Notes under the pieces: model-generated | Databases searched by the model: none | Seen by the model: only the letters and a program-made list of their open reading frames with translations | Told to the model about the DNA's origin: nothing | Position numbers and translations under genes: made by a program | Shown: piece after piece, positions 2,102 to 30,471 of the stretch | Numbering within the stretch: the stretch's first letter is position 1 | Layout: each line of letters begins with the position of its first letter | Origin: a virus | Virus record (IMG/VR): IMGVR_UViG_3300043444_000316 | Span: 1 to 30,471 of that record | Strand: one strand, 5' to 3' | DNA length: 30,471 nt

Positions 2102-2106
2102 TAATA

Positions 2107-2997: not shown

Positions 2998-3010
2998 AAA
3001 TAAGATAATA

Positions 3011-3015
3011 AAGGA
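3011..3015 (+). promoter_or_regulatory. Shine-Dalgarno of the re-established queE start
   Basis: AAGGA lies 5 bases before the ATG at 3021. It lies in the AT-rich tract after the endonuclease stop and gives queE its own ribosome binding site, replacing the coupling to the MazG-like gene that the insertion broke. Confidence 0.7.
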
Positions 3016-3020
3016 TAAAA

Positions 3021-6740: not shown

Positions 6741-6769
6741 TTGACTTTTCTGCAAAACTCCTGTATAAT
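6741..6769 (+). promoter_or_regulatory. Sigma-70 consensus promoter for the AAA+ ATPase gene
   Basis: TTGACT at 6741-6746 and TATAAT at 6764-6769 are separated by exactly 17 bases. One base of the -35 box and none of the -10 box differ from consensus. The -35 box abuts the upstream stop codon. It would be read by unmodified host RNA polymerase and give a leader of about 50 bases to the ATG at 6827. Confidence 0.85.
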
Positions 6770-6776
6770 CAATACA

Positions 6777-6796
6777 TACGCTAACGATACAGCGTA
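6777..6796 (+). other. Stem-loop in the 5' leader of the AAA+ gene
   Basis: TACGCT (6777-6782) pairs with AGCGTA (6791-6796) over an 8-base loop. Six base pairs lie right at the expected transcript start. It may protect the 5' end of the mRNA; it is too weak for a terminator and has no T-run. Confidence 0.45.
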
Positions 6797-6826
6797 AAAA
6801 TTTCAACACTTTTTAAAGGTTTTAAA

Positions 6827-7909: not shown

Positions 7910-7912
7910 ATT

Positions 7913-7933
7913 GGGCCCTTCGGGGCCCTTTTT
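7913..7933 (+). terminator. Rho-independent terminator after the AAA+ gene
   Basis: GGGCCC, a TTCG tetraloop, GGGCCC, then five Ts. The stem is pure G-C and carries one of the most stable known tetraloops. It lies 4 bases after the stop and ends just before the next promoter. Confidence 0.92.
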
Positions 7934-7935
7934 GC

Positions 7936-7964
7936 TTGCCCTTTGGTAAAAAATAGTGTATAAT
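7936..7964 (+). promoter_or_regulatory. Sigma-70-type promoter for the VWA gene
   Basis: TTGCCC at 7936-7941 and TATAAT at 7959-7964 have a 17-base spacer. The -10 box is perfect; the -35 box matches in the first three bases plus the fifth. It starts immediately after the terminator and leads to AAAGGA and the ATG at 7992. Confidence 0.75.
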
Positions 7965-7991
7965 AAGTATATTAAACAGAAAGGATAAACT

Positions 7992-9257
7992 ATGTCTGAT
8001 GTTATGAAAGCTGAGAAAGTCAAAAAGACTAAGCCCACAAAAGAATATTCAAATGCCGAAAAGGCAAAAATTATTGACAAGCTGATTACCGCTCGTGTTG
8101 GACTGTTGCTCCGCCATCCTTTCTTTGGTAATCTGGCTACCCGCATGAAACTAATTGACGCATCTAACTGGTGTCAAACACTGGCAACAGATGGTCGCAA
8201 TTTCTATTATAACCTAGAGTTTGTTGATAAGCTCAAGCCTAAAGAAGCAGAGTTCGGCTTTGCACACGAAGTTCTCCACAACGTATTTGATCACATCGGC
8301 CGCCGTGAAGGTCGAGATCCCCAGTTGTCTAATATTGCCGCAGACTTTGCAGTTAATCAAATTCTCAAAGATGAAAAAATCGGTGAAGTGCCTAGCTTCA
8401 TCAAAATCTTTCAAGACAACAAATATCGCGGCTGGAGCTACGAACAAATCTATGACGACCTTTACGAAAAGGCTGAAAAGATCGATTTGAGCCAACTCGG
8501 TGAACTGTTAGACGAACACCTTGACGGAGAAGGTGACGATGACAGCGACGGAGATGATGGTCAGGACGGTGATCAAGATGGATCGGGTAAGCGCCCTCGT
8601 CTAACTGCTGAAGAAAAGAAAGCCATCCGAGACGAGATCAAAGAAGCCATGGTAGCGGCTGCTCAAGCGGCAGGCGCAGGTAAAATTCCTGCAGGTGTTG
8701 CACGTCTTATCAAAGACTTCACTGAGCCTAAGATGGATTGGCGCCAACTGCTCCGTATGAACATCCAAAGTATCATTAAGAGCAATTTTAGTTTCCAACG
8801 TCCTAACCGTAAGAGCCAACACTGCGGTGCTGTATTGCCCGGTATGATGAATGAAGAAACTATTGACGTGTCTGTTGCAATTGATATGTCAGGGTCTATT
8901 AGTGATGCTATGGCTAAGGACTTCATCAGTGAAGTCAAAGGCATTATGGACGAATATGTAGATTTTAAATTAGACCTGTGGTGCTTTGATACCGGCGTCT
9001 ATAACTATGCAAAATTCTCAGGTGACACCGCTGACGAAATTATGGATTATAAAGTCAAAGGCGGTGGCGGTACTGACTTTGATGTAAATTGGGACTTTAT
9101 GAAGCGAGAAGGTATTGAACCTAAGCGATTCATCATGTTCACCGATGGATACCCTTGTGGTAGTTGGGGTGACGAAGATTACTGCGAAACCCTGTTTGTC
9201 ATTCACGGCAACGAATCCATTGTTTCCCCGTTCGGTCAGACTGCTTATTATAAATAA
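7992..9257 (+). CDS. Metallopeptidase-like and VWA-domain protein, partner of the AAA+ ATPase
   Basis: A 421-residue protein in three parts. Residues about 25-140 resemble the putative metallopeptidase domain found N-terminal to VWA-like domains (DUF2201 type): GFAHEVLHNVFDH contains HEVLH (92-96), a zinc HExxH motif. Residues about 170-205 form a very acidic Asp/Gly linker with many DD and DG pairs. Residues about 285-421 are a VWA fold with a complete MIDAS metal site: AIDMSGSIS (DxSxS near 298), GGGTDFD near 360 and FTDGYP near 382. Proteins of this shape commonly accompany MoxR ATPases and act as substrate adaptors. AAAGGA lies before the ATG. Whether the HExxH site is catalytic is unknown. 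Targets may be host or virion proteins; this is inference. Confidence 0.85.
   Translation: MSDVMKAEKVKKTKPTKEYSNAEKAKIIDKLITARVGLLLRHPFFGNLATRMKLIDASNWCQTLATDGRNFYYNLEFVDKLKPKEAEFGFAHEVLHNVFDHIGRREGRDPQLSNIAADFAVNQILKDEKIGEVPSFIKIFQDNKYRGWSYEQIYDDLYEKAEKIDLSQLGELLDEHLDGEGDDDSDGDDGQDGDQDGSGKRPRLTAEEKKAIRDEIKEAMVAAAQAAGAGKIPAGVARLIKDFTEPKMDWRQLLRMNIQSIIKSNFSFQRPNRKSQHCGAVLPGMMNEETIDVSVAIDMSGSISDAMAKDFISEVKGIMDEYVDFKLDLWCFDTGVYNYAKFSGDTADEIMDYKVKGGGGTDFDVNWDFMKREGIEPKRFIMFTDGYPCGSWGDEDYCETLFVIHGNESIVSPFGQTAYYK
9249..9256 (+). promoter_or_regulatory. Exact T4-type late promoter element TATAAATA
   Basis: The 8-base T4 late consensus occurs here, overlapping the stop codon of the VWA gene and 13 bases before the ATG at 9270. 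The leader to that gene would be only about 6 bases, so if it is real it may serve the two genes further on. It may also be a by-product of Tyr-Tyr-Lys-stop coding. Confidence 0.35.
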
Positions 9258-9269
9258 AGTAGGTATATA

Positions 9270-9548
9270 ATGGCTATCAGCAAAGGAAGGGTGAATCCAT
9301 TAAACGTACTTTCAGCAAGGCGTTTAAATAGGATTCCTCCAAATTTTGGCAAGCTCTTAATAAAGAAATTTATTGATATTAAAGAACTCGATAAATGGAT
9401 TTATTTGAACTTGAACAGTAGATACTGTGTCAGAAAATGCACCGTCGTCGATGACAATAAGCTAACTACTGCTATCGAGATAGGCATTGAAGATTCAAAA
9501 GAACTTTCTATGCTGTCTTTAGCCTGTCCAATACTGCATAAGGAATAA
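9270..9548 (+). CDS. Small unknown basic protein, 92 residues
   Basis: Not recognised. It lies 12 bases after the VWA gene; AGTAGG is a weak ribosome site before the ATG. The N-terminal half is basic (GRVNPLNVLSARRLNRIPPNF) and leads into helices, KLLIKKFIDIKELDKWIYLNL. The second half has two Cys (YCVRKC), a Val-Asp-Asp turn and probable strands, TTAIEIGIEDSKELSML. No known motif is seen. Confidence 0.6.
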   Translation: MAISKGRVNPLNVLSARRLNRIPPNFGKLLIKKFIDIKELDKWIYLNLNSRYCVRKCTVVDDNKLTTAIEIGIEDSKELSMLSLACPILHKE

Positions 9549-9554
9549 GAAGAA

Positions 9555-9773
9555 ATGTCTGAACAGAAACAAGCGCCGGATCTTACAATTACTGATCTTC
9601 AGAATGTAAGATCTGTTATTGATATTGCCGCAACTCGCGGCGCTTTTAAAGCCGCAGAAATGGCGGCTGTTGGTAGTGTTTTTAATAAGCTAGATGCATT
9701 TTTGCAGGCAGTTGTGCCCGCACAGGCTGCACCTGCTGAAGCACAACCAGCAACAGAAGGCACACCAGAATAA
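9555..9773 (+). CDS. Small helical protein with an Ala/Pro-rich tail
   Basis: A 72-residue protein that I do not recognise. Residues 8-50 form two or three helices (LTITDLQNVRSVIDIAAT, GAFKAAEMAAVGSVFNKLDAF). The last 20 or so residues are an unstructured Ala/Pro/Glu-rich tail. A purine-rich AAGAAGAA stretch precedes the ATG. The gene is 6 bases after the previous one and 9 before the next, so it is in the same run. Confidence 0.65.
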   Translation: MSEQKQAPDLTITDLQNVRSVIDIAATRGAFKAAEMAAVGSVFNKLDAFLQAVVPAQAAPAEAQPATEGTPE

Positions 9774-9782
9774 GGAAACAAT

Positions 9783-10403
9783 ATGAAACATGTTGGAAAA
9801 ATGAAAAACAACGGAGCAAGGGTTGCAGTTCTATTTAGAACACTGCCTGGTGACTCCCAAAGTGCCCTTGTATGCGGCACCAACGGCTTGCCGGATGCTT
9901 TCCACGACTCTCTTATGAGTCTAATTGAAAGTGATTCTGGACAACAGGCCAATGAGCTAGCAGACATTTTGGCAGTTCGTCGTTTCCCAGACGGCTCCAA
10001 CATGTTAGAGTTTCTACATCGTAATGGACTGCTAACTAAAGTTCCTACTAATATGGTTACTATGATTTTTGATCCAAAAAATCAAATGCAATTAAATGAA
10101 TTAAATCAATTGATTGCAGACCAGAAAGGTGTAACAGTTGATCAACTGGCTATCTCCGAAGAAGGAAATAGTGACGAGATTGTTGTTAAGGAAGGAACTG
10201 TTGCCACAAAAAATAAGTGGGACAAGGCTAGAGAAGAACGTGCCGCAAAAGAAGCAGTACCAGAAACTAATATGAGTTTGACTCCTGCAGAAATGCGTAG
10301 TCGAGCAGATGCACTTTATAAGGAAGCCTCGAGACTTCGTAAAGAAGCGGATACAATGGATCCGCCGAAAAAGAAAGCTAAAGCAGAAACCACTGAAGCA
10401 TAA
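9783..10403 (+). CDS. Unknown phage protein, 206 residues, Lys-rich C-terminus
   Basis: Not assigned to a function. AAGGA lies 7 bases before the ATG at 9783. Residues 1-105 look like a compact alpha/beta domain: GARVAVLFRTLPGDSQSALVCG, then FHDSLMSLIESDSGQQANEL and ILAVRRFPDGSNMLEFLHRNG. Residues 105-150 are helical and charged. Residues 160-206 hold a helix, TPAEMRSRADALYKEASRLR, and end in a Lys/Ala tail with PPKKKAKA. The N-terminal pattern could suit a small virion or assembly protein. Its stop codon lies inside the bidirectional terminator. Confidence 0.7.
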   Translation: MKHVGKMKNNGARVAVLFRTLPGDSQSALVCGTNGLPDAFHDSLMSLIESDSGQQANELADILAVRRFPDGSNMLEFLHRNGLLTKVPTNMVTMIFDPKNQMQLNELNQLIADQKGVTVDQLAISEEGNSDEIVVKEGTVATKNKWDKAREERAAKEAVPETNMSLTPAEMRSRADALYKEASRLRKEADTMDPPKKKAKAETTEA

Positions 10404-10428
10404 AAAAGCGCCCTAGGGCGCTTTTTTT
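10402..10428. terminator. Bidirectional terminator between convergent arms
   Basis: An A-run (10402-10407), then GCGCC, a CTAG loop, GGCGC, and a T-run (10422-10428). It works on both strands. Both flanking stop codons lie at its edges: + strand TAA at 10401-10403 and - strand TAA at 10429-10427. It insulates the enzyme arm from the structural arm. Confidence 0.93.
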
Positions 10429-11815
10429 AATATACCATTACTTCAATAACCCCAGTCTCTCCATCAAAATCTTGGAGTGCCTTTCCGAGGATCGCTAACG
10501 GATTTGTTCTGTGCCCGTATCTACGAACTTCAGCGTGTCCAGGTACATTAGATGAAACTAAAACGTCACCTTTCTTAACAGGACCTTTTACCTTACATGG
10601 TACTCTTCCTTTTAGTGCAATAGCAACTCCGTTTTCTAGTCCCTGATTTAATAAATGTCCAGGCTGGGTTGATACAATACCTGCAATACCTTCGTGTTCA
10701 TAACTTGCACAGATAGTAACTTCGGCTTCGCCACCTAGTCTTAAAACTGTACCAGGTTCGTATTCTGCATCAGCAAGATATTTTTCTGCCAAGTCAGCGC
10801 CGGTTGTATTGTATTCGTTAGCATAAACTACATTAAATGGATTTGCACTACTACCAATATTAACTAAAGTTCCGGCTGTTCTACTAGGCATCAATGCAAG
10901 ATTGTCACTTGCATCAACGTTAATAATATTAAACAGTTCTCCGCCTGCTGTTGCATTTAAACTAATCCTAGGTAAATCAGTATTAAGTTGAGCGCCACTA
11001 GTATTGGTGTATAATCTTAAACCATTCGATGCAATGTTAATACCGTCAGTAGTATTGACTCTAACTTGAGATGTAAAAAGAGGAGATGAATACTGGACAT
11101 ACTCGCTGGCAAGTTTTCCATCTAGTCGAATACTGTCAGCCGCAGTTCCCCAAAATATAGAACCTAATTCTGTTTCAGAATCATAAGAAATACCGGTCGA
11201 ACTATCAGCACCTGCTAGGGTGATACCTTTCTTAATTACAGGGAATAAAGTAGTGTAGTCTTCTGAAAGAGGTGTAAATGGATCATTCGAAATTACAGCA
11301 ACTTTATTGATTTCTGTTTCTAAATAATAGTTCTGAATATCAAATTTTAAAACATAGTGCGACTGTGTTTCTTCTCCATTATCTTCAAGTAGTACAGGAG
11401 AGACTGTATTTTTAGAAGCTTTACCTGAAAGTTGTGGTCCGATTAAAACATATTTCTGTCCGTCATAAAAATACAACTTACCTTCAGTTTCATTATAGTG
11501 TAAATCGCCCTTTAACTGATCTGTTGGATAATCTTTGCCGGCATTTAATGCAGGTATAGATTTAAAATCACTACCTGTGTAAAATTTAATTTTTTTGTTC
11601 GAGCTATCGTACCAAAGTTGGCCGACTAACGGCTTTGCCGGTTGCTTCGGACTTGAAAAATTTTCTAACAATTTAACAAAGTTAGATGCAATAGCTTCGC
11701 CGTATCCTGCATAGTTCTTTCCAACAAGAGAAATATCACATGCCGTTACATTAATAGAACCGTCTTCGACAGTAACTAATTTTGATCCGTTTGATTTATT
11801 AATAATATATGCCAT
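10427..11815 (-). CDS. Fibre-like structural protein 1, shared N-terminal domain
   Basis: A 462-residue protein, the last gene of the structural run. The N-terminal domain (about 1-130) carries the pattern shared with the next three genes: SLVGKNYAGYGEAIASNF, KLLENF, VGQLWYDSSNKKIKFY, then GDLHYNETEGKLYFYDG. The middle (130-335) is Thr/Ser/Asn-rich and beta-like, with no recognised fold. The C-terminal domain (about 337-462) starts ADLAEKYLADAEYEPGTV and contains EGIAGIVSTQPG, ALKGRVPCKVKGPVKKGD and GVIEVMV; the same domain ends protein 2. The arrangement fits a tail or baseplate-associated fibre: a constant attachment head and a variable tip. AGAGG lies before the ATG at 11815. The gene begins one base after its upstream neighbour ends. 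Confidence 0.8.
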   Translation of the reverse strand: MAYIINKSNGSKLVTVEDGSINVTACDISLVGKNYAGYGEAIASNFVKLLENFSSPKQPAKPLVGQLWYDSSNKKIKFYTGSDFKSIPALNAGKDYPTDQLKGDLHYNETEGKLYFYDGQKYVLIGPQLSGKASKNTVSPVLLEDNGEETQSHYVLKFDIQNYYLETEINKVAVISNDPFTPLSEDYTTLFPVIKKGITLAGADSSTGISYDSETELGSIFWGTAADSIRLDGKLASEYVQYSSPLFTSQVRVNTTDGINIASNGLRLYTNTSGAQLNTDLPRISLNATAGGELFNIINVDASDNLALMPSRTAGTLVNIGSSANPFNVVYANEYNTTGADLAEKYLADAEYEPGTVLRLGGEAEVTICASYEHEGIAGIVSTQPGHLLNQGLENGVAIALKGRVPCKVKGPVKKGDVLVSSNVPGHAEVRRYGHRTNPLAILGKALQDFDGETGVIEVMVY

Positions 11816-11816
11816 T

Positions 11817-13448
11817 TTAACCTCTTGCTACCATAACTTCAATAAAACCTACTTCTGTTGAGTTATAAAATTCTAATGCCTTTGCAACTAAAGATCCAGT
11901 CTTCGGTGCTACTGAGCTAGTAAGTACTCCCGGAATATCGCTAACAACTAGCATATCTCCTTTAAAAATAGTACCAACTACTTTGCAAGGTACTCGACCT
12001 ACTAAAGCGATGGCCACTGCATCTTCTAAGTTTGTATTTAAAATTTGTGCAGGCTCAGTTGTAACAATTCCAGCAACTTTAGTTGTTGAAGGTAAATTAG
12101 CAATAGTAACTTCTTTATCTCCGCCAAACATAACAACTGTTCCGGGTTCATATTGAGCATCAGTTGCATACTTTTCAGCAATGTCGGCATAAACTGCTCG
12201 CAATCTACTGCTAGCAGTTAAAGACCAATCACCTTCAATTAGTCCAGTTGTTGATGAAGTTCCTGCTGTAATAAATCTAGTAACTACTTTATCTGCATTT
12301 ACAATAGTTGCATTAACTACTCCAACATCTAAAGAACCCATAGATGCATCGGCAGAAACAAAAACGCCATCAGATACATCTAACGTACTGCCAGTATCTA
12401 ATTTCCAGTTTCCTACAACTACCCCTTCTTCAGTAGTTCCTCCTGCATTAAGTCCTTTAGTGAATACCGTAGCAAATCTTGCATTAGCAGCACCCATATT
12501 GATCGAACCGTCTGTGCCAGGCTCAATCTTACTACTTGCAGTAAGGATAAATTTACCTGTAAGATTGGCAGAACTTACACTACTGCCTGCGTTAAATTCG
12601 CTTGCATAAACTTTTGCAAATTTATTTGATGTTGTTCCGAGCGTAACTGTACTACCGCTCGGTCTTAGTTCATTAGCATTAATTACAACACTCCTACCAA
12701 TTGATTGGAGTGTTAAGTTCCCCGATTCACTTGGAAATATTGTCGAGGTTCCGATTCCGATACCATTAATACTATTAAATGTCCATCGTCCTGTAATAGT
12801 TTCATCTGCTTCTGCTCTAAGATAAACATCATCGGAAGAAACTGTTGCACCTGAGGCAAAATTAAAGCCGCGGCCAATAACCTCAATTCCTGCAAGATAT
12901 ATTTCATCCGATGTATTGACATAAAATTCGTCGTTAGAAACAGCACCAAGTACTGCATCATCTACATACATAACAATACATGCATGTGATGCATTGGTAA
13001 GATCTTTAACTGTTCTTGATAAAAATTTAGTTTTACCAAAACCAGGTACAGATTCTGGGCCAACTAATGTATAATCCGATAATGTATTCTTAATAAACAA
13101 TTGATCTCTAGATGTATCGTACCAGAGATCACCTACTGTAGCATTAGTTGCTGATGTTGAGCTTGCAGCTATCGTGCTAAATGTGCGCCATTCCGCTCCG
13201 TCATAGACTTTAGGTTTTAAAATACTTGAAGTTTTATCAAACCAAATTTGTCCTTGAACTTTATTAACTGGTTCAACTGTTCCTGCAAAGTTTTCTAACA
13301 ACCAAAGGAAGTTATCGTTCTGAATTGTACCGTAACTAGTAACATCTTTACCAATAAGATAAAGACTGGAAGATGCCTGCTGATCTACTACACCGTCAGC
13401 AAGTGTTATAAAAGCTCTTCCGTCGAAATATTTTAAATTATAAGGCAT
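11817..13448 (-). CDS. Fibre-like structural protein 2, same C-terminal domain as protein 1
   Basis: A 543-residue protein. The N-terminal domain shows SLYLIGKDVTSYGTIQNDNF, LWLLENFAG, VQGQIWFDKTSS and VGDLWYDTSRDQLF, the family pattern. The middle (about 180-415) has several short repeats of the type NAGSSV...GKFILTASSKI and DGSINMGAANARF, which suggest a trimeric beta-rich shaft. The C-terminal domain (about 419-543) begins YADIAEKYATDAQYEPGTV and ends GFIEVMVARG, closely paralleling protein 1. A GGAG Shine-Dalgarno precedes the ATG at 13448. Such a C-terminal domain may aid folding or mediate processing; I see no proof of cleavage. Confidence 0.8.
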   Translation of the reverse strand: MPYNLKYFDGRAFITLADGVVDQQASSSLYLIGKDVTSYGTIQNDNFLWLLENFAGTVEPVNKVQGQIWFDKTSSILKPKVYDGAEWRTFSTIAASSTSATNATVGDLWYDTSRDQLFIKNTLSDYTLVGPESVPGFGKTKFLSRTVKDLTNASHACIVMYVDDAVLGAVSNDEFYVNTSDEIYLAGIEVIGRGFNFASGATVSSDDVYLRAEADETITGRWTFNSINGIGIGTSTIFPSESGNLTLQSIGRSVVINANELRPSGSTVTLGTTSNKFAKVYASEFNAGSSVSSANLTGKFILTASSKIEPGTDGSINMGAANARFATVFTKGLNAGGTTEEGVVVGNWKLDTGSTLDVSDGVFVSADASMGSLDVGVVNATIVNADKVVTRFITAGTSSTTGLIEGDWSLTASSRLRAVYADIAEKYATDAQYEPGTVVMFGGDKEVTIANLPSTTKVAGIVTTEPAQILNTNLEDAVAIALVGRVPCKVVGTIFKGDMLVVSDIPGVLTSSVAPKTGSLVAKALEFYNSTEVGFIEVMVARG

Positions 13449-13462
13449 CTAGTTACTCTCCA

Positions 13463-15676
13463 TTATACATCTCTTCGAATAATCCACGAAGTAAATGTAG
13501 ATGTTGTTGCGGTATTGTAAGCAAGTGTTACATTGACTGTTAAATTAGTACCAGAATATTCAGTAATTGTACCTTGTAGGTAATTAACCTGAGTATCTGT
13601 TTCTCTAATTGTTACACTCGTACCAGTTGTAAAAATTCCTCCCCATGTTGTAGGAGAACTGTAAATTGTTGAACTATTTCTATTAACAGTGAATGTCTTA
13701 ACACCTGTCTCAAGAATAGAAGAACTGTCAGAAGTTAAGTATGTTGTATCAACATCTTCAATAAATGTCCAGTATCCTGCAACTACAGCAAACAATTTAA
13801 CTGATCTAACAATGCGAGGCATTGGTGTAGAAATTGTTACGTTACCTGCAAGTTCAAAATCGGTTACTAACAATGTCGATGTACTAGAAACTGTATTAAT
13901 AAACGAAGTAGTTGTCGAAGTTGCAGTGTAGCTAACATCGGTAACAATGTTAAACAACTCTCTAACTGTCGAAGTATTTAGGTTGCTTAATAGATATGTT
14001 GCAGTAGTTGCTTCATATCTAGTGCATAGTACAGTACATCTAGCACCATCTGGCTGAACATAGTAAGGATCACCAAATCCATCTACTGGTAACGTAACAT
14101 CAAGGATAGCAATAATGTCATCATTAACTGTATCAAAGTCAGTAATATCAACGTTTAAAGTATATGGCTTTCTAGCACTGTATCCACCCAATGCACCTGC
14201 TAAACGACCTTCAAAATATCCTTTAGAAACAGCATAATCATCAGGATCAGTGTCTAATGTTGCTGCCATTCCACCAATTTTTGCAGCAGAATTTAGATCA
14301 ACAACACCACTTGACGGTGCTAACACAAGGTCCGCTAATGGTGATATTGGTGTAGAAATTGTACTAATAACAGCATTTGTAACTGTTAAAACATTCAATA
14401 CTGGAAGATTCTGTAATCCAGGTGCAGATTTAACTGCTCCCCCTAACTTAAGATCAGCCGCACCGTCATACTCGATTGCTACAATGTTATTAATTCTATA
14501 CGAACTTGCAGTAGAAGACAAGTCAATATTAATATTCGACTGCCATGCTTCTCTGTCTTGTTCATATAGCCATAATTTATCAGTAGCTCCATGAACAATC
14601 ATACCGCCGCCATCGGCGCCAAGGTCAGTTGCAGTAGTCTGTACAGCAAGTTCGATGTTTTTATCATCAACTTTAATTGTCGAAACTTCTAAACTTACTT
14701 GAGCCCCATCAACTACCAAGTCTCCAGTAATTCTAACATTACCGGTAATATCTAAATCAGTAGTTGGTGTCCTGTTAAAAATACCAATTCTATCATTGTC
14801 AGAGTCAATATGGATAGCAACTGCATCAGTTCCTGTAGAAACACTGTTATATCTAATCTCTAGTGGCTCGCCTTGAATAGTTCCTCTAATAACACTGGTT
14901 ACGATTCCAGTATTATCGACTAAAAGTTCAATATTGGTATTAGTACCAACACTAACACCTTCGTCAGTTTCAAAGTCAAACGGTTCTGTGATTGTTGCAG
15001 CGGTATCTGCACGTAGTACAGATTCGAGATTAACGCCTGCAACAGAATCAGCACTGGTTGCAGTGCCATAAAACTTAGCACCAATGGCGCTGTTGATGAT
15101 TAAACCGGGTCTAATTGTACTGGTGTTTAAATCTGACTCAAGCAAACTTCCACTAATTATATTAATAGTAGAAGTGCTCATTACAGCCCATCTAGATCCT
15201 TGACTCCAGAAAATAGAGACATCGTGGTCGTATCCAGAACTGTCTGTAATAGTTTCAACAAACCAACCTTCTTTACCGGCTGTATCGGAATATTGTTTAG
15301 CAGATAACTGCCATTCGGAACCATCATACCATTTTAGTAAGTTGTTTGTTGTATCTACCCAAAGATCGCCTCGAACTGCTCCGGAAGGTTCAACAGTACT
15401 AATCACTGGAGCACCGACGGGCTTAAATGTACCAGTCGAATAAACCTTTAATCTGCCTTCGCTAGTGTCAAACCAAGTTTGTCCTACAACAGGACTAGAC
15501 GGTTCTAATAAATTTGCAAAGTTTTCTAGTAAGGCAACAAAGTTAGTATTAACATACTGACCGTAATTATTAACATTTTTACCAACAAGAGTAAGACTTG
15601 TCGATACTTCATCTATCGACTGGTCTGCTACTACTGCCAGTGTCTTACCGTTTGTGTATTTTATCGTATATGACAT
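13463..15676 (-). CDS. Fibre-like structural protein 3
   Basis: A 737-residue protein. The N-terminal domain has SLTLVGKNVNNYGQYVNTNF, VALLENFAN, VVGQTWFDTSEGRLKVY and VRGDLWVDTTNNLLKWYDG. A central block near residues 295-340 (GIFNRTPTTDLDITGNVRI, then a DLVVDGAQVSLEVS strand) is typical of phage fibre shafts. The C-terminal third is very Thr/Ser-rich and beta-like and lacks both the AEKY-type end of proteins 1 and 2 and the collar end of protein 4. An AAAGG-like site is at its upstream boundary. The exact role (short fibre, whisker or baseplate decoration) cannot be told. Confidence 0.78.
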   Translation of the reverse strand: MSYTIKYTNGKTLAVVADQSIDEVSTSLTLVGKNVNNYGQYVNTNFVALLENFANLLEPSSPVVGQTWFDTSEGRLKVYSTGTFKPVGAPVISTVEPSGAVRGDLWVDTTNNLLKWYDGSEWQLSAKQYSDTAGKEGWFVETITDSSGYDHDVSIFWSQGSRWAVMSTSTINIISGSLLESDLNTSTIRPGLIINSAIGAKFYGTATSADSVAGVNLESVLRADTAATITEPFDFETDEGVSVGTNTNIELLVDNTGIVTSVIRGTIQGEPLEIRYNSVSTGTDAVAIHIDSDNDRIGIFNRTPTTDLDITGNVRITGDLVVDGAQVSLEVSTIKVDDKNIELAVQTTATDLGADGGGMIVHGATDKLWLYEQDREAWQSNINIDLSSTASSYRINNIVAIEYDGAADLKLGGAVKSAPGLQNLPVLNVLTVTNAVISTISTPISPLADLVLAPSSGVVDLNSAAKIGGMAATLDTDPDDYAVSKGYFEGRLAGALGGYSARKPYTLNVDITDFDTVNDDIIAILDVTLPVDGFGDPYYVQPDGARCTVLCTRYEATTATYLLSNLNTSTVRELFNIVTDVSYTATSTTTSFINTVSSTSTLLVTDFELAGNVTISTPMPRIVRSVKLFAVVAGYWTFIEDVDTTYLTSDSSSILETGVKTFTVNRNSSTIYSSPTTWGGIFTTGTSVTIRETDTQVNYLQGTITEYSGTNLTVNVTLAYNTATTSTFTSWIIRRDV

Positions 15677-15682
15677 AACCTT

Positions 15683-17926
15683 TTAAGCCTTGATAATATA
15701 ATTCATTGCATGGAACGGAGGCATAACTGTTGTAACCATACCTGTTGCTGTTCCGCCAAACCCCGGTGTAGGATAAGGGAATTGTTGCGAGAACGATGTT
15801 GCAGTCATTGTAGCTGTTGTAGCTCCGCCAACTACCGGCGGTGCAGTTCCAATAGATGCACTATACGCATTAGGAGTAGTTGCTCCAACTACTCTGTTAG
15901 CAACTCCGCCGCTACTCAAGAATCCGTTAGTCATATCATCGTACCCGATGATAGTTCTTCCACGCATATCTGGAAGTCTAAACTGTCCATTAACTAATGT
16001 CTTGCCGTAAGTAAATCCGATTGCGGCAAATAATTCTGGGTAGTCGCTTCTATTAACGATAGAACCATCGCAGAACAACCAACCTTTGCTTAAAGTAGTT
16101 GCCGCTGCCGGCTTTTCTAATCCTGCATAAGGAACAATAGTACCAGGAGGTATTAAGAAGTCAAGTACGTCTTGTAATAGAGCATCTCGACTAGCTTTAG
16201 CTAGACCTGTTACACCAGTTCCGGATACAGTAACATATGATGCAGTAGTAATCGGAATACTTCCCAATACATTAACGCTAGGAACAGTAATGTCAAAATC
16301 GTTTATATTGTTAGAACCACCTAACAATCCACCCGGAATAGTTAGGACATCGTTTGCAACATAATTAGTTCCGCTGTTTGCAACTCTACTGATAAAGTAA
16401 CTACCGTTACTCTGTCGAACAATATCAAAATATGCACCGTTACCTGTTCCGCCATTAGCAGGAATAGATACAAAATTAACGGCACTAACTGCAACTAGCA
16501 ATTCGTCATTGGCAGACACATTAGTAACTGTGCTTCTGTTGGTAATTGCTTCTGCTTGAAGTTCAGTTACAAAGTCTTTAGGATCACCTGTACCATTGTA
16601 TGTTACACCTGCACTGGCAATATCGCCAGACATTGTAAATTGTGCAGAAGCAGATAATCTTGTGGCTACTGTCGAAGTCCCATCTAAGTTACCCTTGAAC
16701 ACTGCACTATGAACTTCTTTAAATGCCGAGCTTGTAGATCCTAATGTATAGACATTATGAACTAAAGGTTTAATAATTTCTTTAGAGAATAAAGCAGAAT
16801 CTGTAGTAGAGTTACCAATCTTTATTCCACCTGCAAATGTAGCAGTGGAGGAGAATGTAGCTGTGCTACCAAATGTAGTCGATTTGCCAAATGTTGCAGA
16901 TCCAGTAATGATCAATGCATCATTTGCATCAGTTGTAATTGTAATGTTTCCAGAAAATCTAGCATTGCCAGTGACATCTAAAGTATATTGAGGGTTAGTA
17001 GTGTTAATACCAATACGCTTATTCTGTCCGTCAATGGTTAAAATTTCATTGTAGATATCGCTCTCGTCGATTACTTGGAATCCAAAAGTACCATTTACCT
17101 TACTATTAACAAACTTATTTTTAAATGTACCTTCTTTAGATATTGAGAACGTAGGATCTACACCTAGTGTGATACCGTTCTTGGCATTAATAACTCCGCT
17201 AATAGAATTATCAATGTCGTTTCTAACAAAATAATTTCCGTTAATAACTGCTCTAACAGGAGTAGTTACTACAATGTTCTGTGCGGCATAAGCTGTTGCA
17301 TTTAAGATTGCACTATTAACTGATGTTAAGTTTAATCCAGGTTTGATAGCTTCAAAGCCGTCAATTTTAATCTGCGGAGTAAATTGATCAGGGCTAATAA
17401 TTTCAACAATTTCACCATCAACATAGTTTGCAATGATTTTATGATCAACACCAACTGTATCTTTTACTGTTTCCGGAATAGGACCAGACTTTGTGCCGCC
17501 GTCAATTGCAGGACCTACTAAAATCCAATCACCGTCAGGATTTTTTACCTTTAACTGATAAGAAACTGTATCGACCCAAATATCTCCAGTCACAGCTTCT
17601 GGTGGTTCTTCAGGCTCTTGATAAACGCCATTAATAGATTTCCAATTAGCACCGTTGGCAGTACCATCATTAACTTTTAGTTTATGATTCGCATTGTCAT
17701 ACCAAAGTTGTCCTTCAATAGGATTTGTAGGCGGAGTACTGTTAGCATGGTTTTCTAACAGATGTAAAAAGTTTGTGGAAATATCATAAGCATAACCAGA
17801 AGCGTTTTTTCCAACAAGCATTAAACTTGTAGAATAATTATTGCCCGGCGCTCCAGGTAGTCCATCATCAACTACAATAGCACTACTGTATTTGGTAGGG
17901 TCTGTAAAATAAACATTATATGCCAT
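15683..17926 (-). CDS. Fibre-like structural protein 4 with tail-collar domain
   Basis: A 747-residue protein, the longest of the four. The N-terminal domain shows SLMLVGKNASGYAYDISTNF, LHLLENHAN, IEGQLWYDNANHKLKV and VTGDIWVDTVSYQL. The middle (about 270-400) has INTTNPQYTLDVTGNARF, a fibre-shaft motif, and an Ala-Thr-Phe-Ser repeat (ATFSSTATFAGG). The C-terminus (about 590-747) is a phage tail collar domain: IPPGTIVPYAG, GWLFCDGSIVNRSDYPELF, GQFRLPDMRGRTIIGYDD, ending PPFHAMNYIIKA. In T4-like phages this domain is found in baseplate short fibres and related receptor-binding parts. A GGAG site precedes the ATG at 17926. Confidence 0.88.
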   Translation of the reverse strand: MAYNVYFTDPTKYSSAIVVDDGLPGAPGNNYSTSLMLVGKNASGYAYDISTNFLHLLENHANSTPPTNPIEGQLWYDNANHKLKVNDGTANGANWKSINGVYQEPEEPPEAVTGDIWVDTVSYQLKVKNPDGDWILVGPAIDGGTKSGPIPETVKDTVGVDHKIIANYVDGEIVEIISPDQFTPQIKIDGFEAIKPGLNLTSVNSAILNATAYAAQNIVVTTPVRAVINGNYFVRNDIDNSISGVINAKNGITLGVDPTFSISKEGTFKNKFVNSKVNGTFGFQVIDESDIYNEILTIDGQNKRIGINTTNPQYTLDVTGNARFSGNITITTDANDALIITGSATFGKSTTFGSTATFSSTATFAGGIKIGNSTTDSALFSKEIIKPLVHNVYTLGSTSSAFKEVHSAVFKGNLDGTSTVATRLSASAQFTMSGDIASAGVTYNGTGDPKDFVTELQAEAITNRSTVTNVSANDELLVAVSAVNFVSIPANGGTGNGAYFDIVRQSNGSYFISRVANSGTNYVANDVLTIPGGLLGGSNNINDFDITVPSVNVLGSIPITTASYVTVSGTGVTGLAKASRDALLQDVLDFLIPPGTIVPYAGLEKPAAATTLSKGWLFCDGSIVNRSDYPELFAAIGFTYGKTLVNGQFRLPDMRGRTIIGYDDMTNGFLSSGGVANRVVGATTPNAYSASIGTAPPVVGGATTATMTATSFSQQFPYPTPGFGGTATGMVTTVMPPFHAMNYIIKA

Positions 17927-20495: not shown

Positions 20496-23400
20496 TTATT
20501 GCCCTACTAAAGGTTCTCCTGATTCGCTGTCTAGAGTATCACCGGTTTCTAGTACGATATACTGGTCGGTTGCGGTGTTCTGACCATAGTAATATTTATC
20601 TGGTAGGAAAGATGGTCTTTCTAACAAGAACTTAACTTGCTCAACATTTCTAATGTGAGCGTCAGAATATTCAAATCCTACTTCCTGTGAAACTGCTTGA
20701 ACTACTCGAACCTCTGCACCTACTGTAGGTGTAAAGTTTAAGCTGATAGCATTAGTTGCTGTGTTAATAGAAAATTCAGCTGTCAGCGCAACAAGTGTAG
20801 ATGTTCCTGCAGAATTTATATCTCCAGAATCGTAACCAATAGACACGTCTGTAATCTTATAAGTTGAAGTTGTATTCTTAACAGTCTTTACACCGTTATT
20901 AAACAAAGAAGTGTAGGTATCAGAAATTGGCTTTCTTAAAACTCTTCCTTGATAGATGACTTCAACTTGATCAAAATCTACAGTATTTTCAACAATAACA
21001 TTAGTCATTGTTAATAATGTATTAGTCGTACTGTTGATTACAAACTTATCAAGACGTTTAGTTTCACTGACAGGAATGTTTTGTCCATTCCCTTGATCTA
21101 AAACTACTGAACTTTCTTTGTGTAAAGTTTTTACACCAGTTCCTAATGTTCCCCTACGTAGCCAGCTTAGTTTATTACCTTCTAGTTTGTAGAATTCAAT
21201 ACGTTCTCCATCAATTAAGATAACTCCTGGACGATTCTTAGCATGGTTAGGTGGTGTAAGAACGCTAGCATCTTCAACAGTAATAAATGTATCTGTTGGA
21301 CGCAAGTCATCTGCTAACTGAGTTGTGTTTTCTTGGCTGATTCTCTTATAGTGAGTTCTACCAAGATTGTCATGGAATATTCTATAACCAATTAGTTTTT
21401 CACTAGTTTGATCAACAACACTCATAACAACTACTGTATCAGACGAGCGAAGTTTAAATCGCTTGTTAATTACAACCGTTCTTTGATCACTTTCAATTCT
21501 AAAATCAAACTCTCTAGTAATAGGTTTTCCATTAACTTCAACCCAAACATAATTGATATCAACAACTGTTCTGCTTAGTTTAAAGATGCCAGATGATCTG
21601 CCTTTGAAGCGTTCTCTTCTGAATAGACTGTTATCGTGGTTAGTAAATGATGTAACTTTGATAACACTAGCAGAGGAAACATCAACACGGTCTGTTAGAA
21701 CTAGTTGATTATTAACAACATAGTAATCGTGGTCTCTTAAGATTGTTATTGCCACAACATCAGAGTTAGACAATGCAGTTTCTGCAAAATCTACAGAATT
21801 ATTGTCTTGATTTAACTGTACTGATTGACTAAATGCAGTTCTTTGTCCATTTACATAAACTTCAAGTTTTGCTCTATCAGGTAGTCCTTGCGGATAGTCA
21901 ATGTGTTGATCTAGAGAGAAACTACGTACTCCGTTTGCAGCTGAATAATAAACTGTATCTGGAGGACTTAATCTTACACCATCACGTTCAACAATAATTT
22001 GACTGTGGTAAGGTTGAATATTGCCCGGAGCATAAGTTAATGTAAATTGGCTAGTTCCTGTGGTAGCAGATATAATCTGCTCTTGAACTTCGCTAAATGC
22101 TTTGTTGTCGCTAGCAAAGAACCAGACTTGTAACAAGTCTCCAACTGCTAAGTCAGTGTTAAATGTTACAACAACACGACCAGAAGTTCCAGACTTTTGG
22201 TTACCAGTTAAAGTGTAATCTGTTCGCTTGATACCATTAACAGTTACATAAGCACTATTAACATCAGCATAGTTAGATGCAAAATCAAACACACGCTGAC
22301 CGCTAGTATATGTAATAGGCACAGATGCTTTTTCTAAGAAATTCTTACCACCAACACTCATTGTTGTAATAGACAACAATTCCGGATCAGGGTTTTGATT
22401 TTTAAATGCATCAAAGCTACCTTGGCCAGCATACTGCCAGTTTCCGCCATTGCTGGTACTGTAGAATACATGACTTGTATTATTTTGAATATTAGCATCA
22501 TCTACGAAAATTCCAGTTCCTGGCACAGAACCAGAACGTCCGAGAGCAACACCTGTTACAAAGCCTTGATCTCCGTTGAAGTTAGTGCCTCTCCAGGTAT
22601 TTTCATAAATCATTTCAATGTACTGATTTGTACCATCGCTGTATAGTGTAACTTCATACTGATAAGCAGGAATAGAAGTAGTTCCTATTCTTTGATTATA
22701 GTGGCCGCCTTGGAAGCGTAGTCTCCAATAGACAAAGTTGCCAATTTCGCCGTTACTCAAGAACAATCCAGGAGTTTCTCCAGTGGATAACGGAATAGTC
22801 TGTCCAACACTGTTAGTTCCGTAATCTTGCCACAAGTCGCAATATTCGATATAGATTGCAGGGAAATCAATAATTCCCGGAACTAGCGGAGTCCAACTAT
22901 CGTCGCCGCCACCAAATGTTAAGTAACCGTTTGTACCAACATAGACTTCGTTGTATAATGTTCCAAACATGTTCCATGAGAAACCTAACGAGTACGGACC
23001 GGTATATGTATCATCGCCTGCGGTACTTGCAATTGGATTGTTAATGTTCTCACGTCTTGGAAGAACAGCAGCCGGACTAAAATACGGACCTCTTATACCT
23101 GCATAAGGATCATCAAGGAATACAACTTCGTTGGTTAGATAATCAATAGTGTAATCAACACCATAGGACAATAATCTGTTATTCAGTAGAACTTCTACAG
23201 ATTGATTGTTAGGCGGTGTAAATCCAATAGGATATCTATCAGTAAATGCATCTTTGAGATACTTCTTATTGATCATCAAGGCTGCACCAGACTTAGGATA
23301 GGTATAAACGTTTATGCCTAAACTGTCAGTAACTCTGCCTGGAAGATTTTCTTCTGGGCCGTAACTGTTAGTTGCACTAACTAAAGCATCACCGTCAATA

Positions 23401-26400
23401 TTAATATCTTCTAAGTCATCAGACTTAGTTAATTCCATTCTTCCATTGATGCTATCATAGTACCAGCCTGGACTATTAATACCATTAGGATTAATATAGG
23501 TGTCTAGATCTAAATCAACTACCGGAGCAGATCCGTCACTTGTTTCTAGCCTAAATAATACTCTATCATCGGAGTTGTAAATTTCTGCAACAGAAATTGT
23601 GCTAACATAACCGTTGCCAATAAAGACAGTTGCAGTAGTATCTACTCTAACAAATGTGTTAGAACCCGAATACTTAACATAGGCATTATAAACGTCGCCA
23701 TTAGCAGGAACAAATGGTAAAGTATAAACTAGCGGTGCAGGATTCACAAAGGCCAAACTAGTACCAGTAGCAACCCCAACCGGAGTATCTAGAACAACTT
23801 TCCATCGAGGATCAGTTTGATTTTCAATGTCTAAAGGAATAAAGGTCGATGATGTTACAGAATAAACTACTGTAGAAATAGTAACTGTAGATCCAACTTT
23901 TAAATTAACAATATCTTTATCTTCTGTTACATCAAAATAAAGAACTGTGCCTGCGCCAGATGTTGTATTTGCAGAAACAGTAGCAGTGATTCTTGGTCCA
24001 CGAGTTTCATATGATCCAACTTCAGGAACAAAATCATCCCAGTTGCTTTCACCGAATGGTGTAGAATCCCAACCTTTTGAAACTTCAAACGGTAGTGTAT
24101 CTATTGTTACGCCCGGATATTCTAAGCCATGCATTAATAGAGTAGCAGTATTGCCCGGCATTCCAGATGTAGGTGCATAGAAATCACGAATTCTATCAAC
24201 TGCATGATATAAAGAATGATCTTTTCTGTATTCGATAGTAATGCTAGATAGTTTTCTAGGAACGTAGCTTAAAACTAGTTTTCCAAACTGTTTAGAATAC
24301 CCATTAACTTTTTCAGTATATCGAACAATTTCGTAATCGCCAGTAAGTTCTCTAATGCCATTAACTCGAACAGTAATGTTATTCTTATCAGGATCAGGTG
24401 CCCAAGTTAATGCAAATTCTCTTGTAATACCGTTAGCAACATAAGAATCGTATGCTGTCGATGTTGTAATCTCATTGTAGCCAGAAACTCTGTCAAACTT
24501 CATAGTGATAGAGTTTGAGCGAACTAATCCGTTAGTCATTCTCGGAGCGACTCTTGCAGGAATTAGATCAGTAGGGCCGCCGCCAATTAGATTAACAACA
24601 GGTGTAGCTGTATATCCAGCACCTGGATCAGTAACAATAATTTGAGATACTTTTCCAAGAGCAATATAAGCAACTGCCTTGGCGCCGGTTCCAGTTGTAT
24701 CGCCTACCTGAGGCACTATTTCAACTACAGGAGGAATTTCATAACCGGATCCACCATCATACACATCAATAGATTCTAAGGAATAAGAATAATTCTGTAG
24801 CCAGTTCTTCCAAGGATATGTATTAAGTTCAGCACGACCAAAGGTAACTGGAACAAATTTTCCTTGACTTGAGCTATATGTAGAAGGCAGGTCAAAGTCG
24901 GTTATAACAGTCGTAGATAAATCTGTAGCTGTATAGTTGTTAGTAAAGTTTCTTATCTTAGTGTGATAAGGTTTTGTTTCATTAATATAGTCTTGGTAGT
25001 AAGACTCGTTGTTTAATTTATAAACAGGACGCTGGTCTAATGCACCTGCATAGTTATATACGTTAATGAACGATGTCTTAAATGCCCAGTCTAAGAACTT
25101 TTGTTCAGACATAGCATACTTGACTAACTTGAAGAACAGCTTGTTATAATAGACTTTTAGTGGTCCGACAAACACATCTTCTAGAAGACCGTAAATGATA
25201 TTTTCAGTTTCTTTAGCAGGATTTTGGTCGAACGCTGTTTGGTCCCAACCAGAAACTTGGTCCCAACCATAGACAGAATCTTTGTAGTTCCAAATAGCAC
25301 CGTCTATCTTAATAGTACCTTTTTCTTGGTAGATTAAATCATATTTGTCGTTAAATGTTCCTACACCAGAGTCTGCAGATCTACGGCGTAGAATAATGTA
25401 TCTGCCATCGCCGCCATTTCTAACTTTAATATAATTCCCAGCAGGTACAGATGCAACACTAGGTAATTGATAAGGTGCATCAATTGTAGCAATAATATCC
25501 TGTGCAGGATTGTATGTTGTATCTACCCAATCAATGTATGTCCAGAAGTCCTGTGTGTTAAATGATTGTGTATATTTTCTTAAGAATACTTTAGCATCAT
25601 AATCCCACTCGTATCGGCTCCAGCGACCATTGACTGTATCATCTGCTCGAACAATAACGCTAAACGGTCTTACTGTTAGAGTAGGTGCTGAAGTAAAATT
25701 CTTTCCTGTATTAACAACTGTAGCAGCAACAAGTTCGCCAACAATATTAACTTCAGTAGTAATTAAAGCTTCAACACCGTCACCTTCGATCACTACAGTA
25801 GGTCCAACATAAGTAGAAGTTTCTCCGTTAGATAGTGTCAAAGTCTTGTCTTGAGTACCGTACCCAAATCCAGGATTGTCAATTGTTACCGAATTAATTC
25901 TACCGTGTTTAATTGTACAGCTTAGGCTTGCCTTCTTAAGATTCCTTGTAACAATAGTAAAATCACGCTCAATTAAATCTTCAACAAGTACATCGTATGT
26001 ACCTAGTCTAGAATTAGGAATTTCATCTTTAGATAAGAATCTTTTTAAACTTACACTATCAACAATATTATTAGTTGCAAGAATAGAATTAGAATACTCA
26101 ACTAAAGTACGAAGAGCTCCTATTCTATCTTTAAACATACTTTGTCTAGGTCTGAAGCCAACTCCGTACTTTTGTCTATCAGACAACATAGGATCAGGTA
26201 CTGAATTACCTAGTATATCTTTGCCTAACAAGCTATCAATTGTTTTTCTAACTAACAGAGTATTTGGAACACTTGAAGCATTGCCATCCTGCAACAACAA
26301 CCATTCAGTGTGCTTGTTAGTTTCTTTGCCAGAAGAATCGATGTCAATAGAAAGGTTAATGGTTCTTCCAACTAATGAGCTTTCCATGTTTGTTAACATA

Positions 26401-29400
26401 ATTGCATTATCTGCAACCACTGATGCAAACTTAAGACCTTTAGCTTTAGGGTCTGCAATATAAGTTGCAACATCATACGCACTTAATCTTCTTGCAACAC
26501 CTTCCGGAACAGTTACTTTGTTCTTTACCCAATAGTAATAGACATTACTAAAAGAGTTTGAAATAGGATTCCAAACTTGTTTAATAGAAATAACAGAGTT
26601 ATCAGCAAACTTAGGTTGTCCGCTGATTCCTTGAGCTAGTCCTTCATTAGTGTCTGCTATTGCACTCCATTCGCTAGGCAAATATGTAGTTCTAACCCAT
26701 TCATACACATCAACCATTGAGCCAGGGAAAAGCGTATTCCAGCTGTTTCTTCTAAACTCAAGTTCTCCTTGTTCATACCATACATATTTGACTGAACTTA
26801 AATCCCACCATAGTTCGCCAACGTGTTCATCTAGCCAGTTATTGTTTGTATTCGCAACAACACCATTAATACCGATAGAATAAACAGCAGGGTCAAATAG
26901 AGATTTAAAACTCAACTCTTGATCTGCAAGTCCAGAAATTTTACCCTTTAGTGGATCAATTATTTCTAAGTAATCGACAACAATTTCTTTATCAACATCA
27001 ATTGTTCTAATAGTCTTAATGTTGCTTAGATCGACTAATGCTGTTTCTTTCCTAAACAATTTCCAACTACTTAAACTATCAGAATTAGAGTCATAGAAAT
27101 ATATATCTCCCATTTGAGAATTATCTTTGCTCAATCCAGGAGCGCCTACAATAACGCCTGTTTCAAATACAAACGAGCTGTTGCCGTATAATTGCCCAGG
27201 TGTCGATAATTGATTGTATAATTCTTCGCCGAAGACAAACTTAGCATTTTCTTTTACAAAGGTAAAGGCTGCTCCAGAATTCTTAATCGTTGAGAAGAAT
27301 CTTGTTGTATCAGAGTCAAAGGTAGTACTTGATTCTCTAGGAATACTACTTGTATCTAATACATATTTTTCTTTAGTACTGTCTTGTCTAGTATATGTAT
27401 CAAAGGATGCGAACGGCTTGTGACTTGACCCGGTGCTAGATATTATTAAAGTTTTTCCGTCAGGAGCAACATTAATTACACTACCAAAATCAAAACCGTT
27501 GTTAGTATAAGGATTGTCAATAACATGATCTAGCACATATTGGCCAGATGTTAGTTTTAGAACAAAAACTTTTCCTGTTCTTACTAGATTATCGCTCGCT
27601 TTAATCGCAGAAATAAACAAGTAATCGCCTGTTCTATCCATTGCAATACTTTCTGCAAAACCCGAACCTGGGCTAACAAAAGTTAAACCAGTGATAACTT
27701 GAACATTTGTATAAGTGTCGTAGTCACTAGAAGTATATACATAGACTGCGCCAGTAGAAGTTGTCCAGCCAGGAGCAGCTACAGCAACTCTAGATCCTGT
27801 ATAGTTACCGGCAATAGCGTGTCCAAAACGACTATTAGCAGTTAGTCCCGTTGCCGGCAATTCAATACTAGTGCTTGCAGTAATTGATAAACTTGCAGTT
27901 GTAATAGTGTCTATTACATTATGATATACTGCACCCACATCACTATCCTGACCAGGACTTGATACAAACACAATCTTAGAAGATGTTGATACATTGCCAA
28001 CAAAAATATCATGACCAAACTGAGCATTGGACTGCGGATCAGGGCTTGCAATAACTGTATCAAATAATTCTTCGTTATTATCAAAATCGTATCTAACAAT
28101 CTTAACTAGACCTTGTTCAACAAGTGCTGAAGTAGAAGAAGTTAAATTAACTGTACTAAATTTATTAGCAGAAGTTACATGTCTAACATAGGAAGCAGAA
28201 GGTGCTCCAATAAACACTAGACTGTTATCTTGGTCAAATTTAATTGCTGTTCCAAATAACGAAGAATTAGTTCCTGTGAAATATTTTTCAACTTTAGAAG
28301 GGTTAGGATTAATAATTCCTGCAGACAGTACATCGTCTTGTCCTACACCTGTTCTTTTGTATAGATAAACTCTTCCGTAAGAATCAGATAATCCTGCATC
28401 ATAGAAGAAGTTAGGGGACGATACTGCAAATTTATTTCCGTCGTCACTACCTGTTATACTATAACCATATTGTTGATTTTCACTTAAGGTATAGGCAACA
28501 TAAGGAGAACTGTATTCAAAAGAATTAAAGTTAGCAGACTTTTGATAGACCGCCCATTTACCCGAGCCGTCGTCATCAACCCATATTTTTTCGTCAGCTT
28601 CAAATCTATCAAGAGCAGCAGATGCTCTGATGTCGTCAAAACTGTTAAATCTTACATTAACAAATTTAAACAGAAGACCTACTTGAGGAACGAATGGTGT
28701 TGATAAGCTAGTTAATACAGACGGAATTACAAATTGATTTAAATTAACGATCTCATCAACAGTATAAACTCCGTCTAATTGAGGATCAAATTGGCTTATA
28801 CTAATAATATCGCCGACTGATAAATTATGTCTAAACTCGGTAGTAATTAAAACACTAGCTCCAGGGCTATAGACGCTAGCATCAGTAATTCGAGTAGTAG
28901 TTTGAGTATAGCGAACAACTTCCCAGCTGCCGTTTGGAAGGAATCCAATCCAAACAGTGTCGCCGTCTTTCAACGAACGGTTATTAGCAATGTCTAATAA
29001 GCTGTCTCTATTAAAGGCTGTGGCAGTAACATCATCAAGTCTTACATAACCTGCAGAAGGTAAAATAGCGACACTGTCTGATAACAGTGTGCTAGTTGTA
29101 AGGAAAGGACTACTGTTATAATCTTTTGGCTTAATAACAATTCCGTCCGGAGTCTCATAACTGATAAACTCGTTAGGTTCAACTGGACTAGCTTCAACAA
29201 ACTCAATTAGTTGAGGATTTTCTTTAAACTTTAATTCGTCAAGAGTAAATTCAAGTGTTTCACTGTTAGCAAACGCACCAAAGTCTCCAACTCTAAATGC
29301 CCAGTCTTCGTAGTAATCAATGTATCCGCCTTGAGATACAATACTAGCTTTAGCTAGTTTGCTGATTGTGTTTTTAGTACCTTTCTCTTTGATATAACCT

Positions 29401-30471
29401 TGATAGAATTTGTACTGACTAGTTGCATTTGTAAAGATATTGTCAAGATAAGTTCTTGGGCTATATCCAACTAGGTGTTGTGCAAGAGCCTGTTGGCTTG
29501 CATCAAAGTTGTCAATATCAAGACTGTAGAAATCTTCAAACTGTCCAATCTTATAATCAAAGTTAGGTAGCAGTTCTGCAACAGGCTTGTTACCTAATAC
29601 ATTCCATTCGTTGAAGTTAAATTCTTCAGATCCTATTGTTTTGGAAATAGCAGAATAATAATTGCCTGCATAGAAAACAACGTCGCCTGTAGAGTAGTCT
29701 GTATATTTTTCCCAATTAGAAATTTGTGCTTCGTCGTAGATGAATCCGGGACTGAACATGTCGCCGTTCCATCCAGCTGTTATAAATCCTAGAAGTTTAA
29801 TTCTACGTTGGCGATATCCTGTTTCAGGATCGTAAATAACATCATTAAACAACGAAGAGTTGTTTAAAATCAATGTATGTTCTTTTTGTACTAGATTTAT
29901 TCTAACAAAATAAATTCCGTCATTAGTGTTAGATGTCTTAACAACAAAAACATTTTCATCACGAGCAGTTGAAATGTTCTTACTTGACATAACAGTACCG
30001 TCTGCTCGTAGCACACTGTAGTCATAGAAAATATTAGTTAAACTATCTGCAACTGCGGTAGAATCTTCAAACTTTAAAGAGTTAGCGAACGGGCTTAGTG
30101 TAATAACACTACCTGTTGCCCACTTTTGTGTTGTCCAGTATAACGCTTCTTTAGAAGAGAATGTCCAGTCAATAACTTCAGTAAGTTCTTTGTTGTATTC
30201 GTCAAAAATACAACCTTGACTTTCTAGCCAACGACCATACCCGAGAATTACTGCATATAAGTCTTCAACAGAAGTATATTCAGTTCCATAAGAAACTTCG
30301 ACTGGAGTTTTACTAAACTTAGAAGGACGGCGTACAGAAACACCGCCTACTACAGGAAGAGCAGGCAATGGTTGAAACTTAGTTAGGTCAAATGATTGTC
30401 CAGAATTATGTCCAACTTTTGTTCTATAATATTTGCCGAGATATCTAACAACTTGTCCTTGCTTATAGTAT
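20496..30471 (-). CDS. Giant multidomain virion protein (over 3,300 residues), 5' end outside window
   Basis: The frame is open to the window edge. The first base pair of note, a TTG at 30368, is not a credible start, because 34 further codons upstream stay open and read on smoothly ([13 protein letters not shown]). Residue numbers below count from 30368. The edge segment and residues about 217-262 ([16 protein letters not shown]...W) share a short aromatic module like carbohydrate-binding ones. Residues about 630-1095 hold seven FG-GAP-like blades. Near 1490-1590 and 1866-1925 are G-x-GY strand repeats. About 2440-2620 is nidogen-like ([22 protein letters not shown]). About 2660-2960 has repeated V-x-VNG units. 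Near 2993 begins another beta domain ([13 protein letters not shown]). There is no enzyme motif. It is probably a baseplate or fibre component that contacts the host surface; the precise role is unknown. Confidence 0.85.
27085..28480 (-). repeat. Seven FG-GAP-like blades within the giant protein (probable beta-propeller)
   Basis: Seven successive units of about 60-70 residues have the pattern (F/Y)G-x-(S/A)(I/V)...D-G...(V/I)-(F/A)-(I/V)-(G/S)-(A/S)-P...G-x-(V/I)-(Y/F). Core examples are KFAVSSP, LVFIGAP, IVFVSSP, RVAVAAP, YLFISAI, TLIISST and GVIVGAP. The unit number and total length fit an integrin-alpha-like seven-bladed propeller. Confidence 0.65.

Follow-up and report, generated by a model that had tools for sequence, protein, structure and literature searches.

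Evidence for an integrin-like beta-propeller set in a hairpin turn of a giant phage protein

FG-GAP propellers are already known in phages, and propellers also take part in phage host recognition. Named FG-GAP examples from isolated phages are small, separate proteins of about 375 to 410 residues, as opposed to the domain within a giant protein that we describe here; AP-J-162 gp213, for instance, was reported as integrin-like (PMC11242549). Viral FG-GAP proteins with the same fold as our domain, some of them virion proteins, come from Mimivirus LCMiAC01 (A0A481Z0W4), an uncultured member of the Caudovirales (A0A6J5S3H5), cyanophage S-TIM5 (H6WG31), and Atu_ph07 (a hemagglutinin, A0A2L0UZX4). 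In the receptor-binding protein of Staphylococcus phage phi11, a propeller of five blades has a cavity that could accommodate GlcNAc (PMC4901313). As a propeller used in baseplate host recognition, phi11 Gp45 is a functional comparison only; it is a separate trimeric protein and has five blades.

Proteins of family phrog_10938 from the isolated jumbo phages PA5oct, CBB, XaC1, Atu_ph07, SCTP-2, and Phosso have the same scaffold as the giant protein studied here, including its conserved blocks A and B, and the same position after a gp6-like gene. None of these six homologues was seen to carry a propeller at the corresponding hairpin: PA5oct and SCTP-2 have an uninterrupted hairpin at the site, and the rest have other sequence or no sequence there. 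In the open-licence literature, we found no description of the propeller reported below, nor of FG-GAP repeats in connection with a phage baseplate or a jumbo phage. What appears to be new is where the propeller lies, in a hairpin for which empty-site homologues serve as a control, and that a large clade has conserved it.

The giant protein and its locus

The window, a stretch of 30,471 nucleotides from a lake-type tailed phage that makes up positions 1 to 30,471 of IMG/VR record IMGVR_UViG_3300043444_000316, contains a giant open reading frame (ORF) that matches phrog_10938, a virion structural protein family, at an E value of 4.9e-152. Its main parts outside the propeller are as follows.

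20496..30470, minus strand: giant virion structural protein ORF, 3,324 residues visible, truncated at the 5' end by the contig boundary
28671..30470, minus strand: block A, residues 1-600, conserved sequence before the insertion site
25971..27065, minus strand: block B, residues 1136-1500, conserved sequence after the insertion site

Because the frame runs on past the contig end, an earlier, sequence-only reading of this DNA, which counted residues from a TTG at position 30368, used an artificial start. The nearest relative, L020, is 4,779 amino acids long and has about 1,456 extra N-terminal residues compared with the window ORF. A sequence-based search with block B returned no structural homologue. 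The C-terminal third (residues about 2150 to 3324) is common to the closest relatives only and varies more than the propeller does; by eye, it contains a NIDO-type-like stretch of 12 residues. In the Atu_ph07 giant (L002), about 1,530 residues (1656 to 3186) lie between blocks A and B, and the recurring glycine-rich units of that stretch also match window residues 1897 to 2060.

The window ends before the gene upstream of the giant ORF, and the position of the ORF is read from the synteny of its relatives. The homologue lies directly downstream of a gp6-like baseplate wedge gene in PA5oct, CBB, XaC1, Atu_ph07, and Phosso, and the upstream gene of L020 matches a baseplate wedge family. This is the gene position of T4 gp7. 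A search for homology to gp7 found none: neither the N-terminal region nor the A-B region gave a significant profile match to T4 gp5 to gp12 or gp53. Several contigs of relatives, some of them longer than 200 kb, encode a T4-type Gp23 major capsid protein. In public annotation, the PA5oct homologue carries the note ESI-MS/MS, and from synteny together with this mass-spectrometry annotation, we infer that the giant protein is part of the virion.

Fold and blades of the propeller

The window copy of the propeller is too divergent to be recognized by itself: its match to Pfam FG-GAP_2 (E = 0.11) is below cut-offs, and phmmer found nothing in the PDB. With the window propeller as query, neither tblastn against 50,697 phage records nor a scan of viral contigs with this one sequence found a match. 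The conserved flank gave access to relatives, of which the nearest 80 per scan of the 569 found were used. An alignment of 57 homologous propellers was the basis of both a family profile and an AlphaFold2 model. FG-GAP_2 is matched by 47 of the 57 aligned homologues (best E value, 1.3e-13), and the family profile matches integrin alpha-4 at 2e-15 and other integrin alpha chains at up to 1e-4; apart from integrins, nothing scored below 0.1.

Structure prediction, which the sequence-only reading had named as one check for this region, gave a confident AlphaFold2 model (pLDDT 88.7, pTM 0.88) whose strand order is that expected of seven blades. When the model was searched against the PDB, all 50 of the matches listed were integrin alpha chains (best E value, 8e-15). 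TM-scores to integrins are moderate, at 0.5 to 0.68 with an rmsd of about 6 Å; the value of 0.68 is normalised to the 443-residue alpha-5 chain 9ef2. Viral fold matches were giant-virus FG-GAP or collagen-repeat proteins and a few phage proteins. Sequence and model together strongly support residues about 648 to 1130 as a seven-bladed propeller of the integrin-alpha (FG-GAP) type, laid out as follows.

27085..28530, minus strand: seven-bladed integrin-alpha-type (FG-GAP) propeller, residues about 648-1130 (profile, model, fold search, blade HMM)
28353..28469, minus strand: blade 1, residues 668-706 (model, pattern, HMM unit 659-707)
28071..28259, minus strand: blade 2, residues 738-800 (model, pattern, HMM unit 734-760)
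27906..28025, minus strand: blade 3, residues 816-855 (model, pattern, HMM unit 808-849)
27732..27830, minus strand: blade 4, residues 881-913 (model, pattern, HMM unit 876-913)
27549..27665, minus strand: blade 5, residues 936-974 (model, pattern, HMM unit 927-974)
27252..27494, minus strand: blade 6, residues 993-1073 (model, HMM unit 986-1016)
27276..27428, minus strand: blade-6 insert of about 50 residues (about 1015-1065), between strands 2 and 3
27087..27188, minus strand: blade 7, residues 1095-1128 (model, pattern, HMM unit 1085-1127)

The sequence-only reading had counted seven FG-GAP-like units at about residues 630 to 1095, which in open-frame numbering is about 664 to 1129. An HMM of the blade, built from the family, recovers exactly seven in the window, each scoring 11 to 41 bits. 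A relaxed FG-GAP blade pattern has 6 matches in the 3,324-residue protein, all within residues 668 to 1095; over 1,000 shuffles of the protein, the same pattern had a mean of 0.06 matches and a maximum of 2. The domain probably starts near residue 648, as a strand at 648 to 654 comes before blade 1.

Seven is also the commonest blade number among relatives (98 of the 129 that bear a propeller). Of 17 relatives first labelled propeller-less, 16 have zero blades and the other, L250, has seven divergent ones. Inserts are tolerated in the loops. Blade 2 has an insert of about 30 residues between strands 2 and 3, and the longer insert of blade 6 holds a conserved TFD...TTFDxxxT motif, with F1023, D1024, D1052, and T1056 ranking among the most conserved residues. 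In L062, inserts stretch the propeller region to more than 1,000 residues, yet the blade count is still seven; one insert of about 430 residues lies between blades 5 and 6 (8312-9622). The loop inserts of relatives, including that of L062, matched no known family.

By profile and structure search, the domain shares its fold, along with seven blades and FG and GAP-like motifs, with the propeller of integrin alpha chains (3v4p, alpha-4; 8xek, alpha-V; 9ef2, alpha-5). It differs from them in lacking the DxDxDG calcium motif, which is absent from all 57 homologues, and in belonging to a virion protein without a beta-chain partner. The integrin propeller stands at the start of a membrane receptor, whereas the phage propeller is inserted within its protein; the thigh and calf domains and membrane anchor of a true integrin alpha chain are absent, and the phage flanks are unrelated.

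Insertion into a hairpin and descent

The propeller interrupts a beta-hairpin, the strands of which remain on either side of it.

28539..28589, minus strand: first strands of the receiving hairpin, residues 628-644 (17 residues)
27048..27065, minus strand: return strand of the receiving hairpin (WKLFRK), residues 1136-1141

At the same site, an uninterrupted hairpin of the form kVWVD...WAVY-turn-RxQxxLVD is present in PA5oct, L087, L088, L089, L090, L133, L114, and L124. Aligned with L133, the window protein reaches a single point from both sides, at residues 647 and 1121; there, a model of L133 has strands at 584 to 589 and 592 to 598 with a two-residue turn between them. This empty-site control fixes the insertion point and strongly supports insertion of the propeller into the two-residue turn of a hairpin of the giant virion protein. 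In other homologues (Atu_ph07, SCTP-2, and L149), different sequence fills the region. SCTP-2, which has the uninterrupted hairpin at the site, shows a LamG-looking stretch by eye in the region, and in L149 (about 6071-9982) a YHYH domain (5.3e-37) comes directly ahead of divergent FG-GAP blades in the same place.

Insertion at a hairpin turn makes the two ends of the propeller neighbours, which a closed ring would need, and closure is argued indirectly from this and from the seven blades found across the family. In integrins, the N-terminal strand completes blade 7. The strand at 648 to 654 before blade 1, with the last strand (1136 to 1141) in the hairpin, suggests that the same may be true here. 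We considered whether the repeat is real but the ring unclosed, an open or degenerate array. The window copy falls short of Pfam cut-offs and its resemblance to integrins is moderate in TM-score and rmsd, as such an array might be expected to appear, but the confident model, the seven blades across the family, and the meeting of both ends at one hairpin turn leave this reading with hardly any credibility. The sequence-only reading had proposed a probable integrin-alpha-type seven-bladed propeller, which in a baseplate or fibre protein would be a natural platform for receptor binding. The proposal is partly supported: its fold part strongly, by the profile, model, fold search, blade count, and adjacent ends, and location in a virion or baseplate-locus protein by synteny and the homologue with the ESI-MS/MS note, while the receptor-binding part is a candidate role.

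In a tree of the flank block, a quick tree from similarity-ranked samples, a branch with a support value of 99 has all propeller-bearing proteins, L250 included, on one side. The tree supports a single gain without proving it, and the propeller was probably gained once and inherited vertically. Propeller and scaffold identities covary (r = 0.80, 113 proteins), which indicates that the propeller is not swapped, unlike many host-range modules; one gain on the tree and this correlation led us to reject cassette exchange of the propeller between phages. The domain is kept across a large clade of related environmental phages. In a comparison across 63 relatives, the distant ones have 25 to 37% identity in the propeller versus 40 to 67% in most flank windows. 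Sequence comparison thus strongly supports faster evolution of the propeller than of its flanks, and it is the fastest-evolving segment within the conserved part of the giant protein.

In Phosso, a Sinorhizobium phage, two adjacent giants (PV764938.1, 48338-57826 and 57900-68978; L251), both annotated as hypothetical, have about 40 FG-GAP_2 repeats together, enough for several propellers. Smaller frames of 429 and 398 amino acids at 92 to 94 kb also match FG-GAP.

Possible roles of the propeller

We propose, at roughly even odds, that the closed integrin-alpha/FG-GAP propeller on its hairpin forms an exposed platform at the baseplate periphery for host contact at adsorption. Since both of its ends leave from a single hairpin turn, the ring is expected to project from the scaffold; it would stand out as a rigid, stalked head, and from the periphery of the baseplate it could touch the host surface during adsorption, with the insert loops of blades 6 and 2 as likely contact sites. 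Putative receptor binding by the propeller is plausible: host adhesion would suit a platform that evolves fast, accepts inserts, and would protrude from a protein of the baseplate locus. Speaking against adhesion are the vertical inheritance and lack of swapping, the still greater variability of residues after about 2150, the missing DxDxDG motif, and the better-placed fibre-like genes downstream. Those fibre-like genes and the variable C terminus of the giant are equal or better candidates for receptor binding.

The same traits would also suit a structural docking platform in the virion, to which another protein of the baseplate or fibres would attach instead of the host, an explanation we regard as quite possible, if short of probable. 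Steady vertical inheritance from one gain, with near-constant blade number, leans toward docking, and the conserved motif of the blade-6 insert could equally mark an internal virion contact. Four successive downstream proteins that share two N-terminal families would, moreover, need a place of attachment. On the other hand, the propeller evolves faster than any other segment of the conserved part, and propeller-less homologues have related baseplate loci, so the propeller is not needed for assembly in general. We rank adhesion slightly above docking. Some other propellers of phages, that of the K1F endosialidase for one, are enzymes, and we asked whether this one could be an enzyme or glycan-processing domain, such as a tail-spike-like hydrolase or lyase. 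A fold search with the empty-site scaffold model gave weak matches only, to E1 ubiquitin-activating enzymes and phage endosialidases (phi92 and K1F), and L101 has a sub-threshold match to an endosialidase beta-barrel. For the propeller itself, however, every listed fold match and every significant profile match is a nonenzymatic integrin chain, and Pfam matches of the window copy and its homologues include no catalytic family, which makes an enzymatic role very unlikely.

Returning to host adhesion, we speculate further, and with considerable doubt, that a large clade of uncultured T4-like phages uses the propeller, inserted once into the hairpin of a baseplate protein, as an adsorption head on which clade-specific loop inserts serve as interchangeable ligand-binding modules, in the manner of the integrin alpha-I domain. 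A widespread environmental phage group, in any case, has an integrin-type adhesion fold as part of its baseplate-locus scaffold, a further case of the repeated occurrence of FG-GAP propellers in the virion proteins of phages and giant viruses. The natural empty site would allow the propeller to be excised cleanly, with adsorption as the readout.

Two further observations concern the remainder of the window. Downstream of the giant gene, on the minus strand (10427-17926), are four successive proteins that match phrog_14394 and phrog_15511 at the N terminus and differ beyond it; they look like fibre-type proteins and resemble an adhesin set on a common anchor. On the plus strand, a GTP cyclohydrolase gene (363-1058) and a QueE-like gene (3021-3869), with a homing endonuclease between them, suggest a 7-deazaguanine (queuosine-type) pathway.
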